A stretch of DNA of 64,000 nucleotides, from positions 1 to 64,000 of the forward strand of contig QEUP01000007.1 of assembly GCA_003577145.1 (NCBI GenBank). The letters are read 5' to 3'. The notes under the pieces were generated by a model. That model worked only from the letters and a program-made list of their open reading frames with translations. It was not told the DNA's origin and searched no databases. The position numbers and the translations under genes are program-made. Positions 31,315-40,865 of this stretch are shown in pieces; within the stretch, counting starts at the first letter, position 1; each line of letters opens with the position of its first letter. The DNA is from Acidobacteriota bacterium. GTDB taxonomy: Bacteria > Actinomycetota > Acidimicrobiia > Acidimicrobiales > Microtrichaceae.

Positions 31315-31654
31315 CCCAGTACCGGATGGCGCAGCCCGCGCGGCTGCGGAGCCTGCGGCGGAGCAGCGGGTGCCCCAGTACCGGATGGCGCAGCCCGCGC
31401 GGCTGCGGAGCCTGCGGCGGAGCAGCGGGGACCCCAGTACCGGATGGCGCAGCCCGCGCCACCTGTGGTGGCGCCATGTGAGGGTGGGCTGCGGAGCCTG
31501 CGGCGGAGCTGCGGGGACCCCAGTACCGGATGGCGCAGCCCGCGCCACCTGTGGTGGCGCCATGTGAGGGTGGGCTGCGGAGCCTGCGGCGGAGCAGCGG
31601 GGACCCCAGTACCGGATGGCGCAGCCCGCGCCACCTGTGGTGGCGCCATGTGAC
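31315..31654 (+). repeat. Five-unit array of a REP-like palindromic element
   Basis: Units beginning CCCAGTACCGGATGGCGCAG start at 31315, 31374, 31433, 31519 and 31605, giving periods of 59, 59, 86 and 86 bases plus a partial last unit. Short units fold as CGCAGCC-loop-GGCTGCG. Long units insert 27 bases that carry a further hairpin, GCGCCACC-TGT-GGTGGCGC (for example 31456-31474). The array fills the gap between truA and the rplM leader. Open frames through it are by-products of its lack of stops. A related single copy lies at 49849-49928. Confidence 0.9.
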
Positions 31655-32627: not shown

Positions 32628-32694
32628 CACAGGTACGCCGTGACGGCCCACGCGGAGGATCTCAGCCGCCTTCGCAGCTGTGGACAGGCTTGAC

Positions 32695-34023
32695 ATGCGG
32701 TTCGGCACCGACGGAGTCAGGGGCGAGGCAAACACCGACGTCACCCCTGAGCTGGCAACGGCCATAGGCCGAGCCGCGATTCGTGTGCTCGGCGGCGACG
32801 AGCTCCTCGTCGGCCGCGACACCCGTAGGTCGGGTCCGATGCTTGCCGCTGCCCTCGCTGCCGGCGCCGCCTCCGAGGGGGCCCGGGCATTGGATCTCGG
32901 TGTGCTCCCGACGCCTGCGGTGGCGCGCCTCGCTGCCGTCGATGGCTGCGCGGCCGCGGTCATCTCGGCGTCGCACAACCCTTTCGGCGACAACGGCATC
33001 AAGTTGTTCTCCGCCGGTGGGCTGAAGCTGGACGACGAGCTCCAGAGCCGTCTCGAAGCGGGCATCGATGAGATCCTGGGTCACTCCGGCAGCGCCAGGC
33101 CGGTTGCCGCCCGGGTCGGGACCGTCGAGCCCGTACCAGAGGCGCTGGAGCGCTACGGCGGCTCGATCGAGAGGGCTCTGGAGGGTCACAGCCTTGACGG
33201 GCTGAGGGTGGTTGCCGACTGCGCCAACGGGGCTGCATCGGTCATAGCTCCTCATGTCCTCCGGCGGCTGGGTGCCGAGGTGGAGGCGATCCACGCCGAG
33301 CCTGACGGGATCAACATCAACCACGAGTGCGGCTCGACTCATCCCGAGTCACTCCAGCAGCGGGTGCTCACGTCGCAGGCCGACGCAGGTGTGGCCTTCG
33401 ATGGTGATGCCGATCGCGTTGTCGCGGTGGGTGAGGACGGTGCTCTTGTCGATGGCGACCACATCGTCGCGATGCTCGCGAGCGACCTGAGATCCCGAGG
33501 CCGCCTGCGTGAGAGCACGGTCGTCGTCACCGTCATGAGCAACCTCGGTTTCCGGCAGGCGATGAGTCGGGAAGGGATCCGGGTAGTCGAAACGCCGGTC
33601 GGCGACCGCCATGTACTCGAGGCCCTCGAGCGCGGCCACTGGTCACTCGGTGGCGAGCAGTCCGGCCACGTCATCTTCAGGGACCTGGCGACGACAGGCG
33701 ACGGCCTGCTCACCGCGGTCCTGCTCCTCGACCTTGTCCGTCGCTCGGGCGCGCCGCTCTCGCGGATGTCACAGGATGCGATGCAGTCGCTGCCGCAGGT
33801 GCTGGTCAACGTCCGGGTGGTCGGGTGTCCCCCCGACATCGCCGCTGTAGTAGCCGATGTCGTGGCCGCCGAGGAGGAGCACCTCGGTGGCTCCGGTCGC
33901 GTGCTCGTCCGCCCGAGTGGCACCGAGCCGGTTGTTCGGGTCATGGTCGAGGCGCCCACGGAGGATCTTGCCCAAAGGGTCGCAGGTCGGGTCGCAAGAG
34001 CGGTCGAAGCCGCCTGCGGGTGA
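32695..34023 (+). CDS. glmM: Phosphoglucosamine mutase
   Basis: 442 residues, standard. It converts glucosamine-6-phosphate to glucosamine-1-phosphate for UDP-GlcNAc. MRFGTDGVRGEANTDVTPEL starts it; the phosphorylated serine lies in VISASHNPFGDNGIK, metal binding in GVAFDGDADRVVAV, and phosphate binding in VRPSGTEPVVRVM. ATG 32695 matches the family start; an in-frame GTG at 32680 is less likely. It directly precedes the glmS-like gene. Confidence 0.97.
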   Translation: MRFGTDGVRGEANTDVTPELATAIGRAAIRVLGGDELLVGRDTRRSGPMLAAALAAGAASEGARALDLGVLPTPAVARLAAVDGCAAAVISASHNPFGDNGIKLFSAGGLKLDDELQSRLEAGIDEILGHSGSARPVAARVGTVEPVPEALERYGGSIERALEGHSLDGLRVVADCANGAASVIAPHVLRRLGAEVEAIHAEPDGININHECGSTHPESLQQRVLTSQADAGVAFDGDADRVVAVGEDGALVDGDHIVAMLASDLRSRGRLRESTVVVTVMSNLGFRQAMSREGIRVVETPVGDRHVLEALERGHWSLGGEQSGHVIFRDLATTGDGLLTAVLLLDLVRRSGAPLSRMSQDAMQSLPQVLVNVRVVGCPPDIAAVVADVVAAEEEHLGGSGRVLVRPSGTEPVVRVMVEAPTEDLAQRVAGRVARAVEAACG

Positions 34024-34042
34024 GTATCGGCCGGACCGCAAC

Positions 34043-34048
34043 TACAAT
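34043..34048 (+). promoter_or_regulatory. -10 element upstream of the glmS-like gene
   Basis: TACAAT is one base from consensus and lies in the 149-base gap after glmM. The position 17 bases upstream reads GTGAGT, a weak -35 that overlaps the glmM stop. A 118-base leader would follow. Confidence 0.4.
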
Positions 34049-34172
34049 CGTGCATCGGGCTGGTCGTCACGTCGCGTCCCCGAACTTCGTCCTTCCACCG
34101 ATGCGGTGGGCGTCTCGTGACACTGCTGCCGGTCACGCCGGCGCCTGAGCCGAGGAGATAACCCGACGCACC

Positions 34173-37100
34173 ATGTGTGGCATCATCGCCATTCTCCGCA
34201 AACCGAGCGGTCGTCTCCCTCCGACCGCTGATGAGCTGCTCGCGCCGCTGGAATCGGCTCTGAAGAACCTCGACCACCGCGATGGCATCGAGCTCGCCGA
34301 GCGGCTGGGACGGGCCGTTGAGAGCGTCAGAGGCGTGGACCTCATGCTTCGGGGACTGCCGGGGCTCCGGTCGCTGGTGGATGACCGTTCCATCCATCCC
34401 CGCCTGCAGCAACTGACCGAGCAGATCAGGCGGTGCGTCACCGAGATCGAGGAGCGCCTCGACCGCAGCGAGATCGTCCTCACCGGCTCGGAGCTCGAGT
34501 CGGTGAACGCCTCGCTCGTCGGTCTCAAGGACGGCACCTGGGCCATCGCGCGGGATCGTCTCCACGCGGTCGAGTCGGTGATCGACCTCGCCGGGTCCGA
34601 TGCGACAACGGTGGCTCTGGGTGCGCTGCTCTCGGTGCAGCAGGCGCTTTCGGCACTCGACCGTCTCGAGGTCCGGGGCCGCGACTCCGCCGGCTTGGAG
34701 GTGGTCGTCACCGGGCACGGTCTCGACCTCGAGGAGCCCGCCATCGCCGGCCTGCTGGCCGACCGGATGGACGAGCAGTTCCGGTCAGGTTCGGTCCGTG
34801 TCGCCGGCGGGAATCTGTGCTTCGTGTACAAGGCCGCGGCCGAGATCGGTGAGCTCGGCGACAACACCGCCCACATCCGCCGGGCCGTTGCCGACGACGA
34901 GTTGCTGCATCTCTGTTTGCGGTCCGAGCGCGCCGACGCGCTGGTTCTCGGGCACACCCGCTGGGCGAGCGTCGGTGTGATCTCGGAGCCCAACGCCCAC
35001 CCTCTGACATCCGAGGAGGTCGGTGTCAGCGGACCGCTGGTGACCGGAGCCCTCAACGGCGACGTCGACAACTACGCCGACTTGAGGATGGAGGAGGGGC
35101 TGCGGATTGCCCCGGAGATCACAACTGATGCGAAGGTGATCCCGACGCTGGTCTCGCATCGGATGAAGGACGGCGAGGACTTCGCCCAGGCCTTCCGCGA
35201 CACGGTGCGCAATCTCGAGGGCTCGGTGGCCATCGCCGCCAACTCGGTCGCCGACGGTCATCGGCTGATGCTCGCCCAGCGAGGTAGCGGCCAGGCTCTC
35301 TACATCGGTCTCGCCGAGGACGCGTTCGTGGTGGCCAGCGAGCCGTACGGTCTGGTGGAGGAGACCTCTCTATATCTGCGCATGGACGGCGAGACGCCCT
35401 CCGATCCCGGGAGCGCTGCAGCCAGCCGCGGCCAGGTGATCGAGCTCGACGCCCGCGGTGCCGGATCCCTGGACGGGGTCGAGCGCTGGTCCTACGACGG
35501 AGCCGACCTACCGGTGGACGCCGGTGAGTTGCAGACCGCGGAGATAACGACTCGGGACATCGATCGGGGTGCGTTCCCGCACTTCCTGCTCAAGGAGATC
35601 CACGACGCACCCGCGTCGTTCCGCAAGACCCTTCGAGGGAAGTTGATCGAGGAGGACGGTCGGCTCGGCGTGCAACTCGGTCGTGACTGCCTCTCCCGGG
35701 AGCTGGAGGAGCGCCTCCGGGACGGCGGGATCGCCCAGATACATGTGGTGGGCCAGGGGACCGCGGCCGTCGCCGGGCTCAGTCTCGCGGCGGCGCTCAG
35801 TGACCTTCTCGTCGACACAACCGTGAGGATCGACGCGCTCCCGGCCACCGAGCTGTCGGGCTTCGGCCTCAGTGCCGACATGACCGAGACGCTCGTCATC
35901 GCCATAAGCCAGTCCGGAACCACGACCGACACGAACCGCACCGTCGACCTTGCACGGGCCAGGGGCGCTGCGGTCATCGCCATCGTGAATCGGCGCAACA
36001 GCGACCTCACCGACAAGGCCGACGGCGTTCTCTACACCAGCGACGGCAGGGACGTGGAGATGAGCGTCGCCTCCACCAAGGCCTTCTACGCCCAGGTCGC
36101 CGCCGGGTTCCTGCTGGCCTACGGCATCGCCGGCCTCGTCCCGGGATCAAAGCCTCAGGCGAGTCAAGCACAACAGGACCTGCTCAGGGACCTCCAGCAG
36201 TTGCCCGCCAAGATGAGCGAGACGCTCGAACGCCGATCCGACGTCGCGGTGGCGGCTCAGCACTTCGCGCCGACCCGCCGCTACTGGGCCGTGGTCGGCA
36301 ACGGCGCCAACACCGTCGCCGCACGGGAGATCCGGATCAAGCTCTCCGAGCTGTGCTACAAGTCGATCGCGTGCGACGTCACCGAGGACAAGAAGCACAT
36401 CGACCTCTCGGCCGAGCCGCTGATCCTCGTGTGCGCAGCCGGCCTGTCGGGGTCCAACGCCGGTGATGTCGGCAAGGAGGTCGACATCTATCGCGCTCAC
36501 AAGGCGGCGCCCATCGTCATAGCCAGCGACGGGGAATCCAGCTTCGGTTCGGCACTCCATGTCATCAGGGTGCCCCAGACCCACTGCCGCCTGGCCTTCG
36601 TCCTCACGGCGATGGCCGGCCACCTCTTCGGCTACGAGGCGGCGTTGGCGATCGATGCGCAGGCCCGGCCACTTCGCGAGGCCCGCGCCGCGATAGAGGC
36701 TCTCGCCACTGACGGGCTCAGCGAGATCCACGGTGAGGAGCTGCTCAGGAGGTTGGAGCCGAAGCTCGTGCCCATCGCCACGGGGTTCTTCGACAGCCTG
36801 AGGGCAGGGGAGTACGACGGGCATCTGGAAGCAGGTACGGCGGTACGGGTGGCTTCTCTCTTCAGGTACGCACTCGGCATCAGCGAGCTGGGTTCGTATC
36901 AGGTCGAGTTCGGCAAGGTCGGCACTCCAGGGGTGGTCCTCGAAGACCTGACCTCGGCTCTGAACCTCGCCATCGAGGAGCTGACCCGTCCGGTCGACGC
37001 CATCAAGCACCAAGCCAAGACCGTGACGGTGGGGATCTCGCGCTCGGACGAAGCGCTGATGCAGATCCCGCTCATCGCCGCCACACTCGCCGCCGGCGCA

Positions 37101-37613
37101 CCGCGCGACCAGCTCCACTACAACACCTTGCGAACGCTGGCGGCTCTCGATCCTGCGGTCGAGGAGGTGACGGGCTATACCCGGTACCGCATCGAGCTCG
37201 ACGGTGTGGGTACACCGCGCGCGCTGGTCGTCGATCGGGGCGGCATCTCTACGAGCTTCGCATCGCGCGTCGACCGCGACCCCCGTCTGCGTGGCACGAA
37301 GGCACTGGTGGCGCGCGAGCAGGAACCGGTCTTCGCCAAGGGCCGTGCCGATGGGCGGACGGTGGTGATTGTTCCAGAGGTGAAGGACAGCCAGACGACG
37401 GGTCTGACGCTGCTGCACGTGCAGGTACCCGAGCACCTCGAGCCGTCGATAGCCCGGGGAGTGCTCCAAGGGTACCGTCACCGCTACCAGGCTCTGCGTG
37501 ACGCCGTCACCGAGACCGAGGACACCTTCCGGGAGGATCTGTTGGCCTCCCGGTCCGTGACGGACCTGTTGACGGTGCCGGTCCTCCAGCTTGCCAACCA
37601 CTGGCGCACATGA
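34173..37613 (+). CDS. glmS: Oversized GlmS-like glutamine amidotransferase/SIS protein
   Basis: 1146 residues against about 610 for GlmS, which makes glucosamine-6-phosphate from fructose-6-phosphate and glutamine. The N-terminal nucleophile (MCGIIAI) is followed by a helical insertion of about 130 residues before RGRDSAG near 168; HTRWASVG near 259, NGDVDNY near 294 and a SIS domain (KEIHDAPASF, SQSGTTTDTNRT near 578, SVASTKAF) follow in the usual order. Lys, Glu and His of the isomerase site appear kept in IKLSELCYKSIACDVTEDKKH near 722. The C-terminal active-site lysine motif is not found, and about 300 further residues follow. It holds the genomic place of glmS, so I keep the symbol with reserve. 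Confidence 0.85.
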   Translation: MCGIIAILRKPSGRLPPTADELLAPLESALKNLDHRDGIELAERLGRAVESVRGVDLMLRGLPGLRSLVDDRSIHPRLQQLTEQIRRCVTEIEERLDRSEIVLTGSELESVNASLVGLKDGTWAIARDRLHAVESVIDLAGSDATTVALGALLSVQQALSALDRLEVRGRDSAGLEVVVTGHGLDLEEPAIAGLLADRMDEQFRSGSVRVAGGNLCFVYKAAAEIGELGDNTAHIRRAVADDELLHLCLRSERADALVLGHTRWASVGVISEPNAHPLTSEEVGVSGPLVTGALNGDVDNYADLRMEEGLRIAPEITTDAKVIPTLVSHRMKDGEDFAQAFRDTVRNLEGSVAIAANSVADGHRLMLAQRGSGQALYIGLAEDAFVVASEPYGLVEETSLYLRMDGETPSDPGSAAASRGQVIELDARGAGSLDGVERWSYDGADLPVDAGELQTAEITTRDIDRGAFPHFLLKEIHDAPASFRKTLRGKLIEEDGRLGVQLGRDCLSRELEERLRDGGIAQIHVVGQGTAAVAGLSLAAALSDLLVDTTVRIDALPATELSGFGLSADMTETLVIAISQSGTTTDTNRTVDLARARGAAVIAIVNRRNSDLTDKADGVLYTSDGRDVEMSVASTKAFYAQVAAGFLLAYGIAGLVPGSKPQASQAQQDLLRDLQQLPAKMSETLERRSDVAVAAQHFAPTRRYWAVVGNGANTVAAREIRIKLSELCYKSIACDVTEDKKHIDLSAEPLILVCAAGLSGSNAGDVGKEVDIYRAHKAAPIVIASDGESSFGSALHVIRVPQTHCRLAFVLTAMAGHLFGYEAALAIDAQARPLREARAAIEALATDGLSEIHGEELLRRLEPKLVPIATGFFDSLRAGEYDGHLEAGTAVRVASLFRYALGISELGSYQVEFGKVGTPGVVLEDLTSALNLAIEELTRPVDAIKHQAKTVTVGISRSDEALMQIPLIAATLAAGAPRDQLHYNTLRTLAALDPAVEEVTGYTRYRIELDGVGTPRALVVDRGGISTSFASRVDRDPRLRGTKALVAREQEPVFAKGRADGRTVVIVPEVKDSQTTGLTLLHVQVPEHLEPSIARGVLQGYRHRYQALRDAVTETEDTFREDLLASRSVTDLLTVPVLQLANHWRT

Positions 37614-38359
37614 GCGCAGCCGCCGTTGTCGGAGTTGGTGTCGATCTCGTGAGCGTCGACCGGATGCGCACCGCTCTCTACCGCACGCCGCGGCTCAGGT
37701 ACAGGCTCTTCAGCCCCGCCGAGCGCGATTATTGCGATCAGCGCAATGACCCCGTCGAACGGTACGCGGTCAGGTTCGCGGCCAAGGAGGCGGTGATGAA
37801 GGCGATGGGGCTGGGGCTCTGGCGGTTCCCACTCCGCGAGATAGAGGTGGTCCGAGCCGAGTCAGGGGAACCGTCGGTGACGCTGCACGCCAAGGCCCTG
37901 GCGTGCGCCCGAGAGCGCGGTATCGGCGGCTGGAGACTGACGCTTGCGCATTCGGACTCGTCGGCTCAGGCGATAGCGGTGGCTCTCGGGCGGTCGGGAG
38001 CGAGCCTGAGACCAGAGCTGTGCGCCGAGGATCGGGGGCGCACCGTCCGCTTCTACGAAGACGTGCTCGGGTTCGTGCGGATCGCTGATGCTGATGGGCG
38101 TGCGAGGCTCCGCCTGGACACGGTGGAGTTGGGTGTCCGGGCCGCCGACAGCTCGGAGGGTCGTGCAGGGCCCCGCCGTGGTGAGCTGGGCGGCAATCTC
38201 GAGTTGGTGATAGAGGTCGACGACGTGGTCCTGGCACACGAGCGGGCGGCACGCCATCTTCGGTCTGTCGAGCAGATCGAGGTCAGGGCCGACGGCCTTG
38301 AGGCTTTCGACCTGATCGACCCCGACGGGGTCCGTGTGAGGGTCATGAGTAGACGCTGA
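37610..38359 (+). CDS. acpS: Holo-ACP synthase fused to a VOC/glyoxalase-like domain
   Basis: 249 residues, twice the usual length. Residues 1-125 are AcpS, which moves 4'-phosphopantetheine from CoA to acyl carrier protein: GVGVDLVSVDRMR and RFAAKEAVMKAMGLG carry the metal-binding Asp and Glu and the lysine. Residues 130-249 match a vicinal-oxygen-chelate fold: EDRGRTVRFYEDVLGFVRIA, LELVIEVDDVVLAHERA, FDLIDPDGVRVRVMSRR. The typical first VOC metal histidine is not obvious, so this half may only bind ligand. The ATG overlaps the glmS-like stop. No frameshift is needed to join the halves. Confidence 0.9.
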   Translation: MSAAAVVGVGVDLVSVDRMRTALYRTPRLRYRLFSPAERDYCDQRNDPVERYAVRFAAKEAVMKAMGLGLWRFPLREIEVVRAESGEPSVTLHAKALACARERGIGGWRLTLAHSDSSAQAIAVALGRSGASLRPELCAEDRGRTVRFYEDVLGFVRIADADGRARLRLDTVELGVRAADSSEGRAGPRRGELGGNLELVIEVDDVVLAHERAARHLRSVEQIEVRADGLEAFDLIDPDGVRVRVMSRR

Positions 38360-38394
38360 CGACGCGGGTGGGCCAGTGGTGGCAAGATCACGTC

Positions 38395-39756
38395 GTGATT
38401 CCCATCGTCACTCCGGAAGAGATGAACGAGATCGATCGAGCCGCGTCGGAGCCGGTCGACGTTCTCATCGGCAGGGCCGGCGCGGCTGTCGCGCGATGCG
38501 CCCTCGACCTCCTCGGAGGTTCCTACGGGCGGCGGGTGGTGATAGTCGAGGGGAAGGGCAACAACGGCAACGATGGGCGAGACGCCGCCGAGCGGCTGCG
38601 CCGGAGCGGCGTTCGCGTGATCGAGGTGGACGCTACCGAAGCGCCGTCACCGTTGCCGACGTGCGATCTCGTCATCGACGCCGCCTTCGGAACCGGGTTC
38701 AGAGGCGAGTACGAGGCACCGGATGCGGGGGAGGCCGCGGTTCTGGCGGTCGACATCCCTTCGGGTGTCGACGGTCTGACCGGCGTCGCCTCGGGGCGAC
38801 CGCTGACCGCCGACCTCACCGTCACGTTTGCCGCCCTGAAACCCGGACTGCTGTTCGCCGACGGCGCCTCTGCGTCGGGCCAGGTCGAGGTCGCAGACAT
38901 CGGCCTCGACACCTCCACGGCGCGTGCCCGGCTGGTCGAGCCGGCCGACGTCGCGTCCTGGTTACCGCCGCGCTCCCGCGACACCAACAAGTGGAAGGCG
39001 GCGGTCTGGGCCGTCGCCGGCTCTCCGGGCATGACCGGCGCCGGGCATCTATGCGCTCACTCCGCCTACCGGGCCGGGGCGGGCTATGTGCGACTGAGCT
39101 CGCCGGGGTTGGACCACGACCCAGGTGCGCCCACCGAAGCCGTCGGCGTCCCTCTTCCGGAGGAGGACTGGGCCGGCAACGTGCTGGAAGAACTCGACCG
39201 CTTCGACGCCCTGGTGATGGGCCCGGGCCTGGGGCGGAGCGTAAAGACCGGGGAGTCGATCGCCCGGGTCTTGAAGCGCAGCGGCATACCCGTGGTGCTG
39301 GACGGCGATGCCTTGTTCCTGCTCGGGACAGATGCAGCCGCGGTCCTGGCCGGCCGTGGAGGACCGACGGTTCTCACCCCCCACGACGGTGAGTACGCAC
39401 GACTGACCGGGTCACCACCGGGCGCAGACCGCCTGGGCGCCGTGCGTGACCTTGCCAGCCGGACCGGCTCCATCGTTCTCCTGAAGGGCGCGACGACCGT
39501 CGTCGCGGATCCGGACGGGCTCGTCCTCGTCTGTACGGCAGGATCGAATCGCCTGGCGACCGCCGGTACCGGTGACGTGCTGTCCGGAGTCATAGCGGCC
39601 TTCCTTGCCCGCGGTGTCGACGCCCATCAGGCCGCAGCCGCGGCCGCGGTCGTCCACGGAGTGGCAGCGTGGAGAGGACGCAGGGTCGGCCTGGTCGCCT
39701 CCGACCTGCCCGAACTCGTCTCCGACGTGCTCGGCTCTCTCGGTCGGCCCGGGTGA
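38395..39756 (+). CDS. nnr: Bifunctional NAD(P)H-hydrate epimerase/dehydratase
   Basis: 453 residues; repairs hydrated NAD(P)H. The N-terminal YjeF epimerase domain has VTPEEMNEIDRAA, GKGNNGNDGRDAAERL and VDIPSGVDGLTG. The C-terminal ADP-dependent dehydratase has WAVAGSPGMTGAGHLCAHS, VLTPHDGEYARL and LATAGTGDVLSGVIAAFLAR. GTG 38395 gives the family start MIPIVTPEEM. The gene regularly lies between acpS and alr in actinobacteria. It overlaps the cyclase gene by TGATG. Confidence 0.96.
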   Translation: MIPIVTPEEMNEIDRAASEPVDVLIGRAGAAVARCALDLLGGSYGRRVVIVEGKGNNGNDGRDAAERLRRSGVRVIEVDATEAPSPLPTCDLVIDAAFGTGFRGEYEAPDAGEAAVLAVDIPSGVDGLTGVASGRPLTADLTVTFAALKPGLLFADGASASGQVEVADIGLDTSTARARLVEPADVASWLPPRSRDTNKWKAAVWAVAGSPGMTGAGHLCAHSAYRAGAGYVRLSSPGLDHDPGAPTEAVGVPLPEEDWAGNVLEELDRFDALVMGPGLGRSVKTGESIARVLKRSGIPVVLDGDALFLLGTDAAAVLAGRGGPTVLTPHDGEYARLTGSPPGADRLGAVRDLASRTGSIVLLKGATTVVADPDGLVLVCTAGSNRLATAGTGDVLSGVIAAFLARGVDAHQAAAAAAVVHGVAAWRGRRVGLVASDLPELVSDVLGSLGRPG

Positions 39757-40865
39757 TGCCTGACCCCGAGCAGTTCGAAGCCGCCGGCCTCTACGACCCC
39801 ACGGCGGCCGACGCCGACGACCGACTGGCCCTGCTCCGCTACCTGTCCGAGGCGGGAGCGACCATCGAGGAGATGATCCAGGCCGCAGACGCCGACCGGC
39901 TGGCGCCGCTCGCAGGGGACCGCATCCTGCGTCCCGATTCGCGGCGCCTGACGGTCGATGAGATGGCCGAGGAGACGGGCCTGGAGGCCGATACGATTCT
40001 GCGGCTGTGGCAGGCCGCCGGCTTCGCTCCGCCGCCCGAGGGCCCGTTCTTCTACCGCGAGGACGTTGCGACCTTCATGGCATTTCATGCCGGACGTGAC
40101 CTCCTGTCGGCCGGCGCCACGCAGCACCTGACCCGTGTCGTGGGTGCCGCCATGGGCCGGATCGCCGAGGCTGCTGTGTCCTCGTTCCTGTTGAACGTCG
40201 AGGCTGACCTCGTGAACCGGGGTGCTCCCGATCTGGACTACGCGCGTGCCAACGTGGAGGCCATGGTGGCGCTGCGGGGATTGACGTCGATCTTCGAACC
40301 CCTCTTTCACCACCATCTCGAGGCCGCCATACGAAGATCGATGATGGCGCGATCCGACCCCAGGCGACTTGACATAGTCACCCTCGCGGTCGGCTTCGTC
40401 GACCTCGTGGCCTTCACCTCGCTCTCTCAGGAGATGACCGCTGAAGACCTGGGGAGGCTGGTGACCGACTTCGAGGAACTCACCAACCGGATCGTCGGAG
40501 AGCTCGGCGGTCGGGTCGTCAAGACCATCGGCGATGAGGTCATGTTCGCCGCGGCCGATCCCGACGCGGCCTGTGAGGTGGCGTTGCGCCTTGTCGAGGA
40601 GACCGGGAGTCATCCCGGCCTGTTCGGAGCAAGAGGCGGGTTGGCTCTCGGTGATGCCGTCTGGAGGGATGGCGACTACTTCGGCTCATCCGTCAATCTC
40701 GGCGCGCGACTCGTCGCGCTCGCAGATCCCGGGACCGTGCTGGTGAACGACCGCCTGAGCCGGTCCACCGCGGGCGGCGCCTTCTCCTTCAGTCCGGCAG
40801 GGCAGCGGTGGCTGAAAGGCTTCGGCGAAGCGGTGGACATCTTCGAGCTGACCCGGCGCGGGTAG
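39756..40865 (+). CDS. Class III adenylate/guanylate cyclase with N-terminal regulatory region
   Basis: 369 residues, no membrane segment. Residues 1-190 are helical and begin like the autoinhibitory N-domain of mycobacterial soluble cyclases (LRYLSEAGATIEEMIQAAD; LTVDEMAEETGLEADTILRL). The cyclase domain has GFVDLVAFTSLSQEM (first metal Asp), GGRVVKTIGDEVMFAA (second metal Asp) and DGDYFGSSVNLGARLVALAD (transition-state Asn/Arg). Catalysis looks possible. The product nucleotide cannot be told. It lies within the nnr-alr run with direct overlap, so it is co-expressed with envelope genes. Confidence 0.9.
   Translation: MPDPEQFEAAGLYDPTAADADDRLALLRYLSEAGATIEEMIQAADADRLAPLAGDRILRPDSRRLTVDEMAEETGLEADTILRLWQAAGFAPPPEGPFFYREDVATFMAFHAGRDLLSAGATQHLTRVVGAAMGRIAEAAVSSFLLNVEADLVNRGAPDLDYARANVEAMVALRGLTSIFEPLFHHHLEAAIRRSMMARSDPRRLDIVTLAVGFVDLVAFTSLSQEMTAEDLGRLVTDFEELTNRIVGELGGRVVKTIGDEVMFAAADPDAACEVALRLVEETGSHPGLFGARGGLALGDAVWRDGDYFGSSVNLGARLVALADPGTVLVNDRLSRSTAGGAFSFSPAGQRWLKGFGEAVDIFELTRRG

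Follow-up and report, generated by a model that had tools for sequence, protein, structure and literature searches.

The window analysed here, i.e., the whole 64,000-nucleotide stretch at positions 1 to 64,000 of the forward strand of contig QEUP01000007.1 (assembly GCA_003577145.1, named as an Acidobacteriota bacterium and placed by GTDB in the Microtrichaceae of the class Acidimicrobiia, order Acidimicrobiales, phylum Actinomycetota), carries an enlarged glmS gene, a single open frame at 34173-37613 on the plus strand that translates to 1146 residues starting with MCGI. This open reading frame is real and encodes a glutamine:fructose-6-phosphate amidotransferase (GlmS-type) protein, hereafter the long form. 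From its conserved residues, predicted fold, and genomic place we infer its activity and product: the long form is very probably the cell's glucosamine-6-phosphate (GlcN-6-P) synthase in a rebuilt form. The lysine-bearing tail of the enzyme lies inside the chain rather than at its end, and the long form seems to have replaced standard GlmS in the same chromosomal slot.

By family searches, the protein scored 229.3 bits against the NCBIfam equivalog model TIGR01135 (cut-off 418.05) and 247.9 bits against the subfamily model NF001484 (cut-off 381), i.e., below both cut-offs, and hence is filed here as a separate GlmS-type subfamily outside those models. Pfam recognized GATase_6 at residues 255-390 and SIS at residues 523-648, and a sequence search of the PDB returned Escherichia coli GlmS (1jxa; E-value 4.1e-27, best stretch 259-826). 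The initial annotation of a 1146-residue GlmS-like protein in the glmS position is thereby borne out by one open frame, GlmS-type domains, and a slot adjacent to glmM. The long form is GlmS-type by residues, fold, and genomic place, yet lies outside the curated GlmS models.

The active-site residues were examined in an alignment of the window protein with 78 of 80 related loci (L041 and L062 were left out, as their matches start late) and the E. coli K-12 GlmS from NC_000913, and were found to be invariant in all 79 long forms. In the glutaminase part these are C2 (E. coli C1), R168 (R26), R263 (R73), W264 (W74), N295 and G296 (N98 and G99), and D319 (D123), and in the SIS part T530 (T302), S579, Q580, S581, and T584 (S347, Q348, S349, and T352), and S634 (S401), followed by the isomerase residues E719, K723, and E726 (E481, K485, and E488), K741 and H742 (K503 and H504), and the tail residues A948 and K949 (A602 and K603). 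Of the E. coli counterparts, we take R73, N98, G99, and D123 to be glutamine-site residues, S347-Q-S349/T352 to be the phosphate loop, with an assumed role for S401 as well, and K485 to count among the isomerase catalytic residues. The phosphate-loop residues are kept in the long form, save S303 (A531), and the lysine, glutamate, and histidine of the sugar site, which had seemed retained at first reading, are so in 79/79 (K723, E726, and H742 for K485, E488, and H504). C1, E488, H504, and K603 are named as catalytic residues of GlmS in the available part of PMC9272926.

The position of the tail lysine distinguishes the long form. The E. coli ending A-K603-S-V-T-V-E aligns (MAFFT) with A948-K949-T-V-T-V-G, within a nearly invariant block, R939-P-x-D-A-I-K-H-Q-A-K949-T-V-T-V-G-I-S-R957. 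Nowhere else in the C-terminal third are invariant columns so densely packed (alignment of the window protein with 59 of the 80 loci). Unlike in standard GlmS, this tail is not at the chain C-terminus, as 197 residues follow K949; about 110 mostly helical residues precede the tail and a domain of about 180 residues comes after it. An AlphaFold2 model of the 1146-residue protein, built from the alignment of relatives (predicted local distance difference test, pLDDT, 87.6; predicted template modelling score, pTM, 0.77), superposes from residue 2 to 954 on residues 1-608 of 1jxa_A (Z 41.5, root-mean-square deviation, rmsd, 4.4, 594 residues), with the same end points for 2j6h_A. Judging the register from the end points of the aligned stretches, model residue 954 on chain residue 608 in both structures places K949 on K603. 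K949 is the counterpart of K603 by alignment and, by superposition, to within one residue. The initial annotation had about 300 extra residues replacing the active-site tail: the extra residues are there (about 317 beyond the second SIS half, which ends near 829), while the tail is not replaced but kept.

Genomic context points to the same function. Of the long-form loci (the best 80 of at least 577), 71 extend far enough to show an upstream gene, and 70 of these have glmM no more than 2.5 kb upstream in the same orientation; acpS or nnrD follows downstream in 67/72; nine standard glmS loci of the class, consisting of the eight best-scoring by TIGR01135 and one other and therefore not a random draw, have glmM upstream in 8/9 and acpS or nnrD downstream in 7/8. 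Nine further long-form loci (L120-L128) show glmM upstream in 5/8 and acpS or nnrD downstream in 6/9, and the three without the glmM–glmS–acpS/nnrD slot (L124, L126, and L128) are all from outside the class. Long and standard forms are alternative occupants of this one slot, which argues strongly for one function.

The initial annotation had also raised the possibility that this is the only GlmS of the cell, and this is now well supported by the lack of a standard glmS in the genome and by class-wide exclusion at the model cut-off. In the draft genome itself (68 contigs, 96.6% complete), a protein search with the long form returned no match besides itself. TIGR01135 found the long form and one other glutaminase, which is PurF (492.8 bits, cut-off 350), and the other SIS match is a PGI/PMI-like protein (286.5 bits, cut-off 295). 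The genome search turned up no second, standard glmS, and most of the substrate residues are invariant. Across 394 genomes of the class, each at least 90% complete, in which the long form was detected by its C-terminal addition (alignment A2), TIGR01135 matched 393 but exceeded its cut-off in only 193, while the C-terminal addition matched 194 (193 without the false G130). A scripted comparison of these sets found the long form together with an over-cut-off standard glmS in 0/394, and neither match in seven (G050, G091, G113, G135, G143, G149, and G227). In the nine single-contig class genomes with the long form, no standard match exceeded the cut-off, as rechecked in eight (all but G136). In a sample of 396 genomes of the phylum, the addition matched 41, two of them falsely, and 32 of the remaining 39 are in the class and seven outside it. 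The two matches dropped, in G130 (194 to 193) and G620 (among those taking 41 to 39), were weak (E-value about 1e-4) and, by sequence reading, methylmalonyl-CoA-mutase-like. Separately, G130, a genome of the same order (family f14, 1.8 Mb, 98% complete), yielded neither a long-form nor a standard GlmS in these searches, although the long form is present in other genomes of its genus (g37); its genome may be reduced, with amino sugars taken up from outside.

The long form is not a chance product, because at least 577 related stretches occur in public genomes. These came from a scan of genome contigs (at least 577 stretches with a relative among 592 listed), of which the best 80 were kept; these 80 are 55-63% identical to the window protein and nearly all whole-length (L041, L062, and L070 are cut or start late). 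Their source titles are mostly Acidimicrobiia, Acidimicrobiales, or Actinobacteria, with a few Bifidobacterium breve and Thermoanaerobacterales. Among plasmid records, 194 match but none over more than 80% of the query, and the five listed are annotated standard glmS genes covering 49-58%. In a tree of 597 core columns from 30 long and eight standard GlmS sequences, the long forms make up one group, with 4.2 substitutions per site on the stem between them and standard GlmS; the separating node has a support of 71, many inner nodes are weak, and the support labels, which may have shifted on re-rooting, are given no weight here. The long form is a subfamily distant from standard GlmS and, judged from these sequences, looks like a separate subfamily rather than a recent elongation of the class's own glmS gene. 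Among the papers listed by searches of the open-licence part of PubMed Central, none dealt with an enlarged GlmS or with GlmS/GlmU of Acidimicrobiia.

The structure prediction located the added parts around a GlmS core (Table 1). A helical insertion directly after the N-terminal catalytic strand, as first proposed, is confirmed in the model as five predicted helices between the first strand and the first helix of the glutaminase domain, after which the normal first helix resumes at residues 146-165. The glutaminase core is otherwise intact and superposes on 1xff_B (Z 29.5, rmsd 1.9, 234 residues), and the isomerase part superposes on 1moq and 1mos with Z about 40. The wider spacing up to HTRWA likewise holds (90 residues from D171 to H261, against 42 from D29 to H71 in E. 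coli), as a second insertion adds about 50 residues ahead of it, with a motif, KAAAEIGELGDN, that is near-invariant in relatives.

Table 1. Parts of the long-form glmS gene and its immediate neighbours, in window coordinates
Feature	Coordinates	Strand	Basis
glmM, phosphoglucosamine mutase, directly upstream	32680..34023	+	TIGR01455, 503.7 bits (cut-off 447.55)
Long-form glmS, whole coding sequence	34173..37613	+	TIGR01135 and NF001484 matches; relatives
First glutaminase strand with nucleophile Cys2 (E. coli Cys1)	34173..34199	+	C in 79/79; strand 3-9 in model
N-terminal insertion, residues ~10-145, predicted helical	34200..34607	+	Absent from E. coli GlmS in alignment; helices between 19 and 140
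Remaining glutaminase (GATase) domain, residues 146-459, with R168, R263, W264, N295, G296, D319	34608..35549	+	GATase_6; 1xff_B superposition; residues in 79/79
Second, smaller glutaminase insertion, residues ~180-250, motif KAAAEIGELGDN	34710..34922	+	D171-H261 spacing; near-invariant motif
Isomerase part, two SIS halves, residues 464-829, with S579-Q-S581, T584, S634, K723, E726, H742	35562..36659	+	Pfam SIS; superposition; 79/79
Mostly helical insertion between isomerase core and tail, residues 830-938	36660..36986	+	Absent from E. coli GlmS; helices in 832-942
Internalised catalytic tail, residues 939-957, with K949 (E. coli K603)	36987..37043	+	Alignment, superposition; 943-958 at pLDDT <50
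Added C-terminal domain, residues 966-1146, predicted PAS/GAF-like	37068..37610	+	Model of 828-1146; best match 7jsr_A
acpS with glyoxalase-like tail, start overlapping the glmS stop	37610..38359	+	Family searches

The C-terminal addition was characterized by folding residues 828-1146 separately, using the window protein and 23 of the 80 loci (pLDDT 88.5, pTM 0.59), yielding a predicted alpha/beta domain with a five-stranded sheet and a PAS-like order of elements. Foldseek against the PDB returned no chain at an E-value of 1e-3 or better; the best was L-GDH180 of Mycobacterium smegmatis (E-value 1.6e-3), followed by GAF, Cache, and PAS domains among others. With VIA-align, residues 966-1146 matched residues 174-358 of 7jsr_A (Z 9.2, rmsd 4.0, 159 residues), the only chain with Z of at least 8, while GAF, PAS, and Cache matches reached Z 6.3-7.7 and helical matches on another part up to 7.8, values below 8 that may reflect merely a common arrangement. 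The N-terminal segment of L-GDH180 holds ACT-like and PAS-type modules proposed to be metabolic sensors (the available part of PMC8175468), and from its place after ACT1 we infer that the stretch 174-358 is the PAS module. By sequence, the C-terminal addition gave only two chance-level matches in the PDB, the C-terminal domain of the window protein had no Pfam family up to E-value 1, and those of 24 members matched seven Pfam families, each in one member alone. A PAS/GAF-like sensor fold for this domain is hence best taken as a lead from the model.

Going beyond the observed anatomy, conservation, exclusivity, and slot, catalysis by the long form probably runs as follows. The N-terminal cysteine would free ammonia from glutamine, and the two SIS halves would aminate and isomerise fructose-6-phosphate via E726, H742, and the Schiff-base lysine K949. 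In standard GlmS, a free C-terminal tail bearing this lysine closes over the sugar. The long-form tail is held at both ends, by the added helical segment before it and the predicted PAS/GAF-like domain after it, so that any shift of the C-terminal domain should be transmitted to the sugar site. This domain may bind a metabolite or a partner, move the tail, and so gate the enzyme, while the helical insert near the N-terminus may help in assembly or in relaying the signal, a combination that we consider doubtful though possible. Put in full, i.e., that the catalytic lid has turned into a hinge within the chain, coupled to a metabolite-sensing domain whose ligand directly opens or closes the sugar site, and that this enzyme displaced the ordinary one gene for gene in about half of the class, the proposal is a tentative one, possible rather than probable. 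The allosteric control suggested in the initial annotation is plausible to that extent, the predicted sensor-like C-terminal fold being what suggests it.

Several observations weigh against a rebuilt GlmS with a sensor-moved internal tail. The family scores fall far under the GlmS cut-offs, and four E. coli near-site residues are changed in 79/79 (Y28 to R170, T76 to S266, C300 to Q528, and S303 to A531), while at the position of E. coli H77, 54 of the 79 have V and 25 have I. The 1moq and 1mos superpositions end with 955 on 608, i.e., with the tail register one residue off, and model pLDDT is below 50 at the tail (943-958) and at the active-site stretches 268-271 and 631-633, so that the exact pose of the tail is not predicted. 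A mobile tail is expected in ligand-free GlmS. The sensor-fold match is modest, with 1.6e-3 as the best Foldseek E-value and a single chain at Z of at least 8. Further, a profile comparison of the addition's alignment with the post-ACT1 region of eight L-GDH relatives, one of which maps with its ACT1 to residues 61-361 of L-GDH180, found no similarity (Prob 0.4%); kinship with L-GDH was dropped accordingly and the match retained only as a fold resemblance. As a side observation, PF21075 (GDH ACT1) matched in 8/61 genomes and had no match in the own genome. Exclusion of standard glmS is also imperfect. One class genome, G324, carries along with the long gene a standard glmS disrupted into two frames (402 and 242 bits), which is possibly a decaying leftover of the exchange, or contamination or an assembly error. 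This broken gene is on contig C29 (locus L119, 5853-7539), and the contigs are alike in composition (GC 0.703 and 0.704). Another, G264, has a 236-codon stretch of standard glmS (314 bits; 70% identity to E. coli GlmS) at the edge of a contig, which may be contamination. Outside the class, G420 has the long form plus an over-cut-off standard GlmS, and the other six such genomes do not. Finally, one of two NagB-family proteins in the own genome could in principle make GlcN-6-P in reverse.

The most serious alternative, short of even but to be reckoned with, is that the added parts are merely structural, helping oligomers to assemble, stabilizing the protein, or offering GlmM or other partners a surface to dock on, with no metabolite control. 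It competes with the control part of our explanation and not with its GlmS part, and we regard a purely structural role as about as likely as sensor gating. The weak sensor-fold match favors it, as does the literature, where feedback by UDP-N-acetylglucosamine (UDP-GlcNAc) is described for the eukaryotic enzyme, and post-transcriptional gene control and inhibition by the product GlcN-6-P for bacteria (the available part of PMC9272926), whereas the presence in whole-length relatives of a domain with a five-stranded sheet and PAS-like element order, and a catalytic tail sitting between the added parts, speak against it. That the enzyme is GlmS-like with another product or substrate, the GlcN-6-P coming from elsewhere (e.g., NagB in reverse), is improbable: two PF01182 proteins in the own genome (191 and 84 bits), the four subfamily-specific substitutions near the sites, and the stem of 4.2 substitutions per site to standard GlmS could be read that way, but the counterparts of S347, Q348, S349, T352, S401, K485, E488, H504, and K603 are all kept, and the long form shares a slot with, and excludes, standard glmS. 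The initial suggestion that it makes another amino sugar is therefore not supported, given catalytic and phosphate-loop residues kept (S303 excepted) and the glmS slot beside glmM.

An acetyltransferase added to GlmS could instead compensate for a truncated GlmU, since the organism's own GlmU ends early, at model position 344 of 452. A set of 80 hand-picked genomes (45 long-form and 35 standard) shows, however, that GlmU truncation goes with the order rather than with the type of GlmS, and truncated as well as full GlmU is found with either type: among the 52 genomes of the own order, GlmU ends at 333-362 in 42, is full-length in none, partial or split in two, and without a good match in eight, while it reaches 434 or beyond in 27 of the 28 from outside. 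With no such fold among the best 50 matches listed per fold search, this idea was rejected and appears very improbable. The own GlmU itself (G000:C11:23032-24081; locus L131, 1459-2598 on the minus strand) has 379 residues, the acetyltransferase active site presumably lying beyond model position 344, and is followed, by sequence reading, by prs at L131. A chimeric or misassembled gene might be suspected in a draft of 68 contigs, but relatives of the added domain in 193/394 class genomes, single-contig ones included, leave artefact a negligible probability.

Around the gene, an Rfam search of 33800-38500 gave no match up to E-value 1, hence no glmS ribozyme, and no promoter- or terminator-like site was found in 33900-34300. 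At its C-terminus, the neighboring AcpS has an additional domain resembling glyoxalase (Pfam Glyoxalase, residues 137-244, E-value 2.6e-5). Elsewhere in the window, tandem repeats with units of 59 bases (2.5 copies) and 86 bases (2.9 copies), matching at 97-98%, lie at 31315-31653 between truA and rplM, and an adenylate/guanylate cyclase with an adenylate cyclase regulatory domain at 39750-40862 between nnrD and alr.

Through GlmS, carbon and nitrogen are committed to cell-wall synthesis, and the enzyme is a target for antibacterial agents. Because the long form falls short of the curated cut-offs, roughly half of the class genomes sampled (193/394) would, by those cut-offs alone, seem to be without an essential enzyme; this step instead seems to have been taken over by the long form, with extra parts gained that are perhaps regulatory. 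With the lysine-bearing tail shifted into the interior of a chain nearly double the normal length, the long form would demonstrate that GlmS can do without the free C-terminal tail found in E. coli and in humans. In the available part of PMC9272926, bacterial control of the GlmS step is described at the RNA level and by product, and the long-form family would be a candidate for its control by a dedicated protein domain.

Compared with known systems, the long form shares with standard GlmS (E. coli, PDB 1jxa and 2j6h; TIGR01135) the cysteine-nucleophile glutaminase, two SIS halves, catalytic residues, and, in this class, adjacency to glmM. However, E. coli GlmS has 609 residues against 1146 (25% identity over the superposed residues), bears its tail at a free C-terminus rather than internally, and lacks the helical inserts and the C-terminal domain. 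Human GFAT-1 (PDB 6r4j and others) is the best whole-model fold match (Z 42.3, rmsd 4.1, 610 residues), tied with E. coli GlmS at 41.5. Eukaryotic GFAT is likewise an enlarged GlmS, feedback-controlled by UDP-GlcNAc (the available part of PMC9272926), but at about 680 residues its superposed chain still ends with the tail and has no added C-terminal domain (21% identity). L-GDH180 (PDB 7jsr) is another nitrogen enzyme enlarged by proposed sensor domains (the available part of PMC8175468), without profile similarity to the addition. Finally, NagB-II and other SIS aminosugar deaminases (PDB 8fdb and 7kqa) have the SIS fold in common (Z 31.6 and 33.6) but no glutaminase half, which in the long form is intact.

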